Made by a program: the position numbers and the translations under genes. Shown here one piece after another: positions 23,330 to 39,071 of a stretch of 44,359 nucleotides of DNA. A model generated the notes under the pieces. It made no database searches. It was not told where the DNA came from and worked only from the letters and a program-made list of their open reading frames with translations. Source of the DNA: an uncultured Clostridia bacterium (GTDB taxonomy: Bacteria > Cyanobacteriota > Vampirovibrionia > Gastranaerophilales > Gastranaerophilaceae); contig CAMEWS010000013.1 of the NCBI GenBank assembly GCA_945946765.1, positions 1 to 44,359 on the forward strand, in the 5' to 3' direction. Positions within the stretch are counted from its first letter, which is position 1, and every line of letters begins with the position of its first letter.

Positions 23330-25177
23330 TTATAATGTATTAATCATATTTAATAATAAATTAGCTTGAAAATTTTGTGTTTGAGTAAGCAGAGAGTTTG
23401 CTGTTTGTGTCATAATTTGAGCTTTTGTGTAATTTGCTGTTTCTTCGGCAATGTCGGCATTTGTAATGTTAGAATGTGCAGAGGTAAGGTTTTCAACTTT
23501 TGTTAAGTTAACGTTAGCCGCATTTTCCAAACGGTTTTGTGAAATTCCGATGGCTGTCGTTCTTTTTGCAATAGCGTTAATTGCAGCTTTTACACATTTT
23601 GTTGCATCTAAACAATTTTCAACAGTAGATAAGTCGATTTTCATAGCGCCCAAATCAAGGCCTGTGTTGATAGTCAAAGAATTTGCATCTGAAACCGAAC
23701 CTTCACCTGCTTGAATACGGTTTTCATTATTGCCTTTTTCAAAATTCCAGTTTATGTTGTTAGTGCCTACACCTTTTAAAACAGGAGGAATTGAATAAGA
23801 CATCTCCCAAACTGAATTATCAAAACAATCCCATGTAGAATGTGTTGTAAATTCGCTTTCACTCACAATGCGAGTGTTTGATGAACTTGCGCTTAATGAA
23901 CCACTGCCAAGCATAGTTTTAATAGTTGATTTGTCGGCATTTCCGATAACATTTGTTGCAATTAAAGAGCTGGCTTGACCAAACAAAATACCGAAATTAT
24001 TGCCTGTAGCATTGTCTTTCTTGATGATATCAGCATTAACATAGCAGTTTGATACTGTACATCCGCTTCCTGCAATTCCACCGGTAACGTTAATACCGGA
24101 AACAGAACCTGTGGTATAGCAGTTGGATATAGTGAGACCGGATAATGATGTGTTATATCCTGAAATTCCACCAGTATATAGAGTTCCTGATACAGAGCTT
24201 TCGACATAGCATTTTGTGATATTTCCTTGACCATGTCCTGCAATTCCGCCTGTTGCCATTGTTCCTTTCACGGAACCTGTGACATAGCAGTTTGATATAG
24301 ATATACCACCAAGTCCAACGAGACCGCCTGTATACATAGAACCTGATATAGAGCCGGAAACATAGCAGTTTTCAATAGCGCTTTTACCGTATCCGGCAAG
24401 TCCGCCTGTGTAGTTTGAGCCACTTACATTAACGTTTTCAAGACCCATGTTTTTAATTGTGGCATTGTCTGTATAGCCGAACAAACCAACATATGTTGTA
24501 TTCGCTCTGTTAATTGTCATGTTTTTTATAACATGTCCGTTACCGTCAAAAGTGCCGGTAAACGCATTTGAATTATTTCCAATCGGCTCCCAGTTTTCAA
24601 TGGACGACAAATCAATATCCGCCATAAGAATATATTTTCCTGATAAGTTGTTTCTTACATTGTTTAAATCGTTTGCAGTGTAAATTGCAGTGTAACCTGA
24701 AGGTACAACATCGCTTGAAACATTCGATACGCCAACATTAGAGCTTACTGTTTCCGATACCGTACCGAATACATTCATTCCGTTAAACTTGGTGTCAGTG
24801 TTTTGTTTTTTGATTTCTTCAACAAGAGCATTTGCTTCTTTAGTTAATGCATTTCTTTCGGTATCTGTTAAAGTAGCATTGGCTCCTTGCAAAGCGAGGT
24901 CGTTAAGGCGATTTAACATATCAGTCATTTTGTTCATTGTGTCTTCAGCAGTGCTTAATAAAGAAGAACCCATAGATATGTTGTTTTGAGCTTCTTTAAG
25001 TCCTCTGATTTGAGAATTTAACCCTTGAGAAACGTAATAACCTGCGGCATCGTCAGCAGTTGAATTGATGCGAATACCTGTTGAGAGTCTTTGTAATGAT
25101 GTATTTAAAACATTGTTAGATGTATTTAATTTATTTTGTATCCCTAAAAGTGAGGGGTTAAAGTTTATTGATAACAT
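23330..25177 (-). CDS. Flagellin with a GLUG-repeat central domain
   Basis: This is a 615-residue flagellin. The conserved N-terminal D0/D1 region covers about 1-145 (LNTSLQRLSTGIRINSTADD, then MLNRLNDLALQGAN) and the C-terminal D1/D0 region about 505-615 (ADIAEETANYTKAQIM, ending NMINTL). Both are intact, so filament assembly is expected. The variable middle has about six GLUG-like units of the form GGLxGxxxxxIxNCYVxGxVxGxxxT, predicted to form a beta-solenoid exposed on the filament surface. Most units contain one cysteine, which is unusual for flagellins. The start at 25177 is set by AAGGA six bases upstream; in-frame ATGs at 25183 and 25204 are less well placed. No other flagellar genes are in the window. 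Confidence 0.9.
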   Translation of the reverse strand: MLSINFNPSLLGIQNKLNTSNNVLNTSLQRLSTGIRINSTADDAAGYYVSQGLNSQIRGLKEAQNNISMGSSLLSTAEDTMNKMTDMLNRLNDLALQGANATLTDTERNALTKEANALVEEIKKQNTDTKFNGMNVFGTVSETVSSNVGVSNVSSDVVPSGYTAIYTANDLNNVRNNLSGKYILMADIDLSSIENWEPIGNNSNAFTGTFDGNGHVIKNMTINRANTTYVGLFGYTDNATIKNMGLENVNVSGSNYTGGLAGYGKSAIENCYVSGSISGSMYTGGLVGLGGISISNCYVTGSVKGTMATGGIAGHGQGNITKCYVESSVSGTLYTGGISGYNTSLSGLTISNCYTTGSVSGINVTGGIAGSGCTVSNCYVNADIIKKDNATGNNFGILFGQASSLIATNVIGNADKSTIKTMLGSGSLSASSSNTRIVSESEFTTHSTWDCFDNSVWEMSYSIPPVLKGVGTNNINWNFEKGNNENRIQAGEGSVSDANSLTINTGLDLGAMKIDLSTVENCLDATKCVKAAINAIAKRTTAIGISQNRLENAANVNLTKVENLTSAHSNITNADIAEETANYTKAQIMTQTANSLLTQTQNFQANLLLNMINTL

Positions 25178-25318
25178 ATCCATTCCTTGTGTGTGGTATT
25201 CCATATCCCTTACACATACATAATTCCCTGATTTAAATTGTTTTAAACATATTTGAGAAAACTTGTTACAAAAGTTAATAATGGCGTTGGTAAATTACGT
25301 CTTTTACGATTTCATTAT

Positions 25319-37333: not shown

Positions 37334-37879
37334 CTACACTCTTACACTATACTCACATCCGCAGTACTGCTGACGGTAAAAGTCGTTTTGTTTTGCAATT
37401 TCCATTGTCTTTAAAAAACCGTTTTGTTTTTTAAAATCGTATTCTATAAATTCTAAACCGTATTTTTGTGCAACCGTCTTACCTGCCATAAAAATATTTT
37501 TAGAAACTTTATGAGGACTAACGGTTAAAGTGGTTGTAAAATATTTTATGCCTAGTTCTTTTGCTTTTTGTGCGGTTTTTTCAAGGCGGAATTCAAAACA
37601 TCTGTTACAGCGCATACCTTTTTCAGGCTCTTTTTCATAACCTTTTACATATTCGTACCATTTTTCGGGAGCATATTCTTCAATAATATATTTATAACCT
37701 TGCTTTTCACAGTATTTAATCAGTTCATCACGGCGTTTTAAATACTCTGTTTCGGGATAAATATTCGGGTTAAAAAACAAGACTATTGGTTCATAGTCTT
37801 GTTTTAAAAGTTCTATCGGATATGCCATACATACCGCACAGCAGGCATGTAATATGATTTGAGGTTTGTTATCTTTCAA
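37334..37879 (-). CDS. queH: Epoxyqueuosine reductase QueH
   Basis: QueH (DUF208) performs the last step of queuosine synthesis on tRNA, reducing epoxyqueuosine. The 181-residue protein has all family cysteines: HACCAVC near the N-terminus (C13, C14, C17), MRCNRCFEFRL (C91, C94) and YCGCEYS (C173, C175). These bind an iron-sulfur cluster and a further metal. The segment TTTLTVSPHKVSKNI is also diagnostic. The start overlaps the end of the VKOR-DsbA gene by 11 bases. QueH is a non-orthologous replacement for cobalamin-dependent QueG. Confidence 0.93.
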   Translation of the reverse strand: MKDNKPQIILHACCAVCMAYPIELLKQDYEPIVLFFNPNIYPETEYLKRRDELIKYCEKQGYKYIIEEYAPEKWYEYVKGYEKEPEKGMRCNRCFEFRLEKTAQKAKELGIKYFTTTLTVSPHKVSKNIFMAGKTVAQKYGLEFIEYDFKKQNGFLKTMEIAKQNDFYRQQYCGCEYSVRV

Positions 37880-39071
37880 CAGCCCCTGCTTTCAATAATT
37901 TTGCTTTTAATTCTTCGTATGGCATTATTCCCACTTTTGTTTCCATATTGATTCTTATTGCGGGCGTTCCGTCAATGCCAAGATTGTTTGCCTCATCAAT
38001 TTCTTTGGTCAGTTCTTTTGCAACTTCGTCAGAATGTGCATCTTCTTTAAGTTGTTCAAGATTTAACCCTTTAATGGATTTTGCGTTTTGCAAGATGGAT
38101 TCTTCACCTTGAAATTCCTTGTCAAACAAAAGGCTGTTCATATCCCAGTATTTGCCCTGACGTCCTGCTGCAATTGCGTATTTAGCCATAAGGCAAGAAC
38201 CTTCGTGCATTTGATATTTCATTGCTTTGTTGCAATTCATATCTAAAGGTAGATTGTGATGTACAACTTTAATGTTTTTCAATTCGCTTACGGCTCTGTG
38301 CATCATTGTATTTAGCACAAAACAAAACGGACATTGATAATCAGTATATTCATGAACCACAAGAGTAGCTTTTTCATCACCAAGTATGTTGCCAGACATT
38401 TTGTATTTGCCGTGAGGAGATGAATAATAATCAAGCTCTTTTTGCAATTTTAATTGCGGTGTCAATACATCGGAAACCGTTGTATAAGTTAAAACACCTA
38501 TTGCAGCAATCATTAGTAAACCGAAGGCTATTGCATATTTTTTAACTTTTATCGCAGAGATAAAATCTTTAAAACTTATGGCTAGTACTGATAAAAAGTT
38601 TTCGTCTTTCGGTTTTCCTACAATTGCAAGTATAAAATTCAAAATGTATGTAAAAAAGCACAGAATACACAATTTTTTGATTTCAAAAATGGAAATTCCG
38701 GCAAGAATCATTGAAATTGTGAATGAGATTAAACCGATTGCGCAAATATAGGCTTCGGGATTTTTAAATACATCAAAGTATGCAAAAATTCTAAAACCTT
38801 TTATTTCAACGTTTTTAAGTTTGTCTACATATGTAAAAAACAAGAATACAAAGTATAAAAACAATCCCCAAAATGCCAGCGGTACACCAAAACATTGTGA
38901 ATGAGTCGTTTTTGCCACTCCGTCACAGTCAATAAATTCGTTTATGGAGCAGAAGCTGGAAAGCGCATATGGGTTAAAATTAGCGTCCCAGTATATTAAA
39001 GACAATTTTATTGATGTAATAAACCCGATAATTGCAATAATTGTTAATGCTATTCGTTTATTTAAATTCAT
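37869..39071 (-). CDS. VKOR-DsbA fusion (vitamin K epoxide reductase/thioredoxin-like)
   Basis: This 400-residue protein makes disulfide bonds in the periplasm. Residues about 1-150 form a VKOR four-helix domain with loop cysteines C41 and C49, a third at about C60, and the quinone-proximal CILC (C135, C138). A membrane segment near 180-197 is followed by a DsbA-like thioredoxin domain with CPFC at 247-250 and a cis-proline region GIDGTPAIRIN. VKOR fused to a thioredoxin domain is well known in Cyanobacteria; there the oxidase re-oxidises its own partner. Downstream overlap with queH and a 1-base gap to the O-antigen ligase gene indicate one operon. Confidence 0.92.
   Translation of the reverse strand: MNLNKRIALTIIAIIGFITSIKLSLIYWDANFNPYALSSFCSINEFIDCDGVAKTTHSQCFGVPLAFWGLFLYFVFLFFTYVDKLKNVEIKGFRIFAYFDVFKNPEAYICAIGLISFTISMILAGISIFEIKKLCILCFFTYILNFILAIVGKPKDENFLSVLAISFKDFISAIKVKKYAIAFGLLMIAAIGVLTYTTVSDVLTPQLKLQKELDYYSSPHGKYKMSGNILGDEKATLVVHEYTDYQCPFCFVLNTMMHRAVSELKNIKVVHHNLPLDMNCNKAMKYQMHEGSCLMAKYAIAAGRQGKYWDMNSLLFDKEFQGEESILQNAKSIKGLNLEQLKEDAHSDEVAKELTKEIDEANNLGIDGTPAIRINMETKVGIMPYEELKAKLLKAGAVER

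Follow-up and report, generated by a model that had tools for sequence, protein, structure and literature searches.

A flagellin with a predicted GLUG beta-solenoid between its D0/D1 ends, and its multicopy relatives in Gastranaerophilales

The window, by which we mean the whole 44,359-nucleotide stretch analysed here, comes from a Gastranaerophilales (Melainabacteria) metagenome-assembled genome (MAG) of 1.65 Mb that is 80% complete, and it carries a flagellin gene whose features are collected in Table 1. The longest open reading frame at this locus runs over 23330-25204 on the minus strand. The ATG at 25177 (MLSINFNPSLL), which the sequence-only reading had taken as the start, is likely the correct one because paralogues and relatives begin at the same methionine and a ribosome-binding-like AAGGA lies just 5' of it. 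Four Pfam matches, each above its curated cut-off, outline the protein: Flagellin_N (1.4e-26, 93.6 bits against a cut-off of 26.6) and Flagellin_C (3.2e-14, 53.5 bits against 23) at the two ends, and between them Glug (PF07581; 9.7e-12, 44.9 bits against 20.5) and Peptidase_M26_N (PF05342; 6.2e-8, 32.6 bits against 27.7). The motif GG[LI]xG...[IV]x[NK]C[YF] occurs in five tandem copies, starting at residues 258, 284, 310, 336 and 366, and 20,000 shuffles of residues 157-425 never produced more than one copy. The count of about six GLUG-like units made at first sight thus holds for five canonical units, the rest being weaker, degenerate coils on either side. The cysteine noted in these units is present in all five, as NCYV in three, KCYV in one and NCYT in one.

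Table 1. Features of the flagellin locus and of the VKOR-DsbA gene, in window coordinates.
Feature	Position	Strand	Basis
GLUG flagellin gene, 615 aa, stop codon included	23330..25177	-	Pfam, ORF
Flagellin_N, residues 4-137, D0/D1 N-terminal helices	24767..25168	-	Pfam, AlphaFold2
Junction linker, residues 138-156, low model confidence	24710..24766	-	AlphaFold2
Solenoid N-terminal cap and first coils, residues 157-255; Peptidase_M26_N match overlaps (171-275)	24413..24709	-	
GLUG unit 1, residues 256-281, Cys271	24335..24412	-	
GLUG unit 2, residues 282-307, Cys297	24257..24334	-	
GLUG unit 3, residues 308-333, Cys323	24179..24256	-	
GLUG unit 4, residues 334-363, Cys353	24089..24178	-	
GLUG unit 5, residues 364-392, Cys373 and Cys378	24002..24088	-	
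Solenoid C-terminal coils and cap, residues 393-470	23768..24001	-	AlphaFold2
Flagellin_C, residues 527-608 (helix 519-614), D1/D0	23354..23599	-	Pfam, AlphaFold2
Upstream leader with ATTAACTTTTGTAACAA...GTTTA...GGGAATTAT element	25178..25282	-	
VKOR-DsbA fusion gene	37869-39071	-	VKOR 3.4e-19, DSBA 1.3e-17

The leader element of the window gene is common to two further GLUG flagellins of the same genome (C8 and C40) and absent from its plain flagellins, and a sigma-28 scan of flagellin leaders found no match. The idea that the flagellin had inserted into the ribosomal spc operon was rejected: the genes preceding rpsE are unrelated in same-genus genomes too, and this gene is therefore not the cause of the break in the operon.

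The predicted structure places a solenoid inside a genuine flagellin. AlphaFold2, run on a 28-sequence alignment, predicts helices at residues 8-33, 41-98, 105-128 and 519-614, corresponding to flagellin D0/D1, and with both flagellin domains above cut-off these helices bear out the earlier view that the D0/D1 ends are intact. Between residues 163 and ~425 short strands, most of them with pLDDT 88-97, form a beta-solenoid in place of D2/D3, with no normal D2/D3 fold, as the sequence-only reading had expected of the variable region. The best structural match of the model is Bacteroides ovatus 3n6z (Z 30.2, 2.6 A over 265 residues; VIA-align), followed by five metallo-IgA1 protease entries (Z 25.2-29.5), flagellin filament cores ranking after these at Z ~19. 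A profile of the solenoid alone likewise matches 3n6z (5.8e-20) and IgA1 proteases in a sequence search. With 3n6z and the NTD2 of metallo-IgA1 proteases (M26) the window protein shares the solenoid fold, 22-28% identity over ~260 residues and the Pfam M26_N and Glug matches; it differs from the proteases in having neither a catalytic domain nor HExxH and in carrying its solenoid between the D0/D1 halves of a flagellin. The beta-helix of IgA1 proteases is the NTD2 gating domain, which helps control substrate access (PMC9637739).

Taken at their word, the domain labels would make this an enzymatic flagellin of the M26 protease type, a reading that draws on the Peptidase_M26_N match and on the 17 'Peptidase_M26' domains counted among flagellin inserts by Eckhard et al. 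(2017; PMC5595980). However, the match spans the beta-helix side only, and the HExxH zinc site is absent from 28 of 28 aligned family members; the window protein also gives no Pfam match to the gluzincin metallopeptidase domain of flagellinolysins. Judged by its lack of HExxH the window protein is a non-protease, and the enzymatic reading, largely refuted already, has a probability close to nil. Some of the 17 inserts may likewise be non-catalytic solenoids, which suggests that a 'Peptidase_M26' label may, in certain flagellins, point to a solenoid with a binding or structural role instead of an enzyme. The window protein resembles flagellinolysins and other domain-inserted flagellins in that both flagellin ends are intact and the hypervariable region holds a whole foreign domain (PMC5595980), whereas its insert is a non-enzymatic solenoid and its family is multicopy and mosaic, with homopolymeric tracts in relatives. 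Giant flagellins, which exceed 1000 aa, also have an enlarged surface region (PMC6248924), but the window protein has 615 aa and its insert is a GLUG solenoid. No description of GLUG flagellins was found in the open-access papers searched, none of which paired 'flagellin' and 'GLUG' in a relevant sense.

Regular cysteines raised the possibility of disulfides along the filament, made by an oxidising VKOR-DsbA protein encoded in the same window. That fusion gene is real (Table 1), and there is a cysteine in each of the five GLUG units. Across the GLUG flagellin family, however, the NCY position holds 57 Cys, 30 Ser and 6 Thr, and among intact members one has no cysteine at all and another only one. 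Flagellin is normally exported via the flagellar channel, bypassing any periplasmic oxidase, and the VKOR gene lies more than 12 kb from the flagellin gene, with unrelated neighbours. Because cysteine is exchanged for serine across the family we reject a disulfide ladder, and consider filament disulfides of this origin very unlikely.

The architecture recurs in relatives, represented in the genome collection by Candidatus Gastranaerophilales MAGs. A search for GLUG repeats between flagellin N and C domains had been proposed from the sequence, and the 28-row profile found a match at E <= 1e-40 in 104/241 Gastranaerophilales genomes. In 25 of those 104, spread over two families, the best match reached E <= 1e-100; listed matches of that strength span both solenoid and flagellin sequence. 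A scan of the collection gave 76 loci, about 40 of them GLUG flagellins by custom HMMs, broken and contig-edge copies included. A phage source or link was set aside, the viral-contig scan yielding a single weak match at 21% identity. At one of the collection loci (L079:3-2240, genome G051) the flagellin linker contains an HPELVSGSQTP-type peptide, which may reflect the entry of an interspersed repeat into the part of the gene that encodes the linker.

The window gene is one of several such flagellins in its own genome, which has nine Flagellin_N loci, one of them FlgL, and at least five GLUG flagellins (the window gene, C8, C62, C60 and C40) beside plain ones. C8 is a 604-codon frame, and C60, which like C62 is cut by a contig end, has two solenoid blocks and a GSGEGG linker. 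C40 (L030:2100-2230) is frame-broken between N-domain and solenoid, with a C5 run, ACCCCCGAAC, as against C6, GCCCCCCGAAC, in C60; the break might reflect slippage, mutation or faulty assembly. Flagella are known in some Gastranaerophilales (PMC4040986, PMC5877343). FlhA was found in the window genome and hook and rod genes were also seen; FliD gave no match in this 80% complete assembly and is present in same-genus genomes. Two full-length FlhA-type genes occur in G000 (C32:13554-15560 and C35:1839-3815, with partial matches on contigs C5 and C21), and two also in G013 and in G059; the duplicates are perhaps a second export system.

Comparison of paralogues within single genomes revealed shell/solenoid mosaics, which together with poly-G/C tracts in relatives are the main feature of the family beyond what the sequence-only reading had seen. 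Four paralogues at four loci of the same-genus genome G013 have N-terminal 244 residues that are 97.5-100% identical (up to 243/244 or 244/244 identical codons) and C-terminal 172 residues that are 97-99% identical, whereas their solenoids are just 35-43% identical; the 200 bp upstream are 94-96% alike in 3/4. G059, a genome of the same family, has 28 paralogue pairs with N-shell identity of at least 95% and solenoids only 33-56% identical. Such mosaics could arise either by solenoid exchange or by shell homogenisation through gene conversion. Giant adhesins were considered as recent solenoid donors in G013 and rejected, as tblastn gave 25-39% identity and blastn matches were of at most 52 bases. 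The contrast between shell and solenoid is weaker in G129, G202, G242 and the window genome, where shells have diverged too (50-76%); with N-shells only 50-70% identical among its paralogues, recent shell homogenisation is not seen in the window genome.

Paralogues that differ mainly in the solenoid invite the view that the solenoid is a true adhesin, as the sequence-only reading had proposed for the filament, binding a host glycan, mucin or food particle via its faces, with the paralogues as different specificities. GLUG solenoids also fill giant surface-type proteins of up to 11,061 aa in the same genomes, and the gating role of the related IgA1-protease domain (PMC9637739) would fit as well. 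On the other hand, neither a ligand nor a conserved binding site was identified, the beta-helix is a common scaffold, and the divergence of the solenoids suits antigenic variation equally well. An adhesin function of the solenoid filament is plausible, and we rate it somewhat short of even.

The second feature, poly-G/C tracts, belongs to relatives. The window flagellin gene has no C/G run of 5 or more, the window none of 7 or more, and the window genome no G/C tract of 10 or more. The signs of phase variation are therefore confined to relatives; without a slippage-prone tract in gene or promoter, the window gene would be always available or regulated via its leader. In G059 (BRZ_GG__bin60, equal to G201 of genus g45, the handles being equated by contig coordinates), 12 of the 14 G/C tracts of at least 10 nt lie inside variable flagellin genes, at about codons 142-159, the junction of D1 and variable region; the corresponding site in the window protein is the junction linker, where genus g45 relatives have their tracts. 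These junction tracts are 11-13 nt long, and the plain flagellins of G059 have no such tracts. Half of the tract flagellins (6/12, one of them cut by a contig end) are in frame and half (6/12) out of frame. Each out-of-frame gene has exactly one alternative frame, open for 432-529 codons and mostly reaching the flagellin C-terminus. The twelve are not all GLUG flagellins: in one of them, at L222 (G059:C6, Flagellin_N ~103683-104078) and with a G12 tract, RTX-like GGxGNDT repeats replace the GLUG units. G060, equated by contig coordinates with G196 of genus g45, has 2/3 tracts in flagellins. In other genera, G9-G13 tracts precede the start of the GLUG flagellin by 85-92 bp, and in an orthologous pair with 94.8% gene identity the tract, which stands before TATAAT, is G9 in one member and G13 in the other.

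Of the 18 G/C tracts of at least 8 nt in the 685 kb of scan loci, 11 lie around flagellin starts, regions that make up 4.4% of this DNA; the binomial probability of 2.7e-11 is only indicative because five tracts come from one genome and the loci were chosen for GLUG. In several tract-bearing genomes many further tracts lie outside flagellin genes, which are thus not the sole target. Every genome used is a metagenome assembly, and its tract lengths are assembler consensus; a poly-G sequencing artefact is nevertheless unlikely, since the tracts are internal, stand at homologous sites and can be either G or C on the coding strand. Tracts were also seen near a glycosyltransferase-like gene (L198), in a membrane acyltransferase-like gene (L211) and near metK (L202), the names being read from translations, which suggests a wider set of switch-like loci. 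The junction and upstream tracts of sister genera have the signature of phase variation, from which we infer active and probably stochastic switching. They resemble the homopolymer contingency loci of Campylobacter and Helicobacter, where coding G/C runs of similar length switch surface genes, but here a single genome has them in many flagellin structural genes, at the boundary of shell and solenoid, or ahead of these genes.

The tracts bear on a further reading, that solenoid variation is antigenic or phage-receptor variation without specific binding and the tracts choose the filament coat. Multigene families that pair a conserved shell with a diversified exposed region argue for it, as does one genome whose tract-bearing genes are out of frame in half of the cases. 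Yet fold and head (GKYILMxDIDLS...W.PIG) are conserved among the solenoids, which suggests some constraint. This is a serious possibility that we hold a little below an even chance; binding and evasion both appear compatible with the data and are given equal weight.

Flagellar filaments are usually viewed as propellers with variable decoration. The window protein is probably a solenoid-displaying flagellin from a diversifying and, in some genera, phase-variable surface repertoire. In this genuine flagellin of a flagellated Gastranaerophilales bacterium, D2/D3 would have been replaced by a non-catalytic right-handed beta-solenoid of metallo-IgA1-protease NTD2/GLUG type. Given the conserved D0/D1, the protein should be exported and polymerise like any flagellin, and the filament, or the stretch of it built of this subunit, would then present a regular solenoid array. 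Within the repertoire a conserved polymerising shell would carry diverged solenoids, and in sister genera each copy might be individually switchable by poly-G/C slippage, which would turn translation on or off at the D1/solenoid junction and probably act on promoter spacing where the tract lies upstream of the start. The likely role would be variation of the filament's exposed face, serving attachment to gut surfaces or particles, escape from antibodies and flagellum-using phages, or both. In this gut lineage, a relative of cyanobacteria, the filament appears to have become a scaffold for a family of large modular domains on its surface, shells and solenoids being combined in mosaics and some genera having phase-switch tracts on many flagellin genes simultaneously. 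More broadly, we lean slightly towards the view that flagellated Gastranaerophilales vary antigens or adhesins through their flagellin repertoire, in which a near-invariant polymerising shell carries interchangeable IgA1-protease-type solenoids under a per-copy homopolymer switch at the junction or upstream, possibly together with giant GLUG FliD-like proteins.

Giant GLUG open reading frames were observed in three loci of same-genus genomes: L260:803-18574(+) of 5924 aa, L261:1081-17604(-) of 5508 aa and L244:3-19535(-) of 6511 aa. All three start with a FliD_N-like domain, which scores 18-28 bits (cut-off 24.8) in a scan limited to the first 800 aa and 23-34 bits in the genome search, and all contain Flagellin_IN repeats; they are possibly giant filament-cap or hook-associated proteins.
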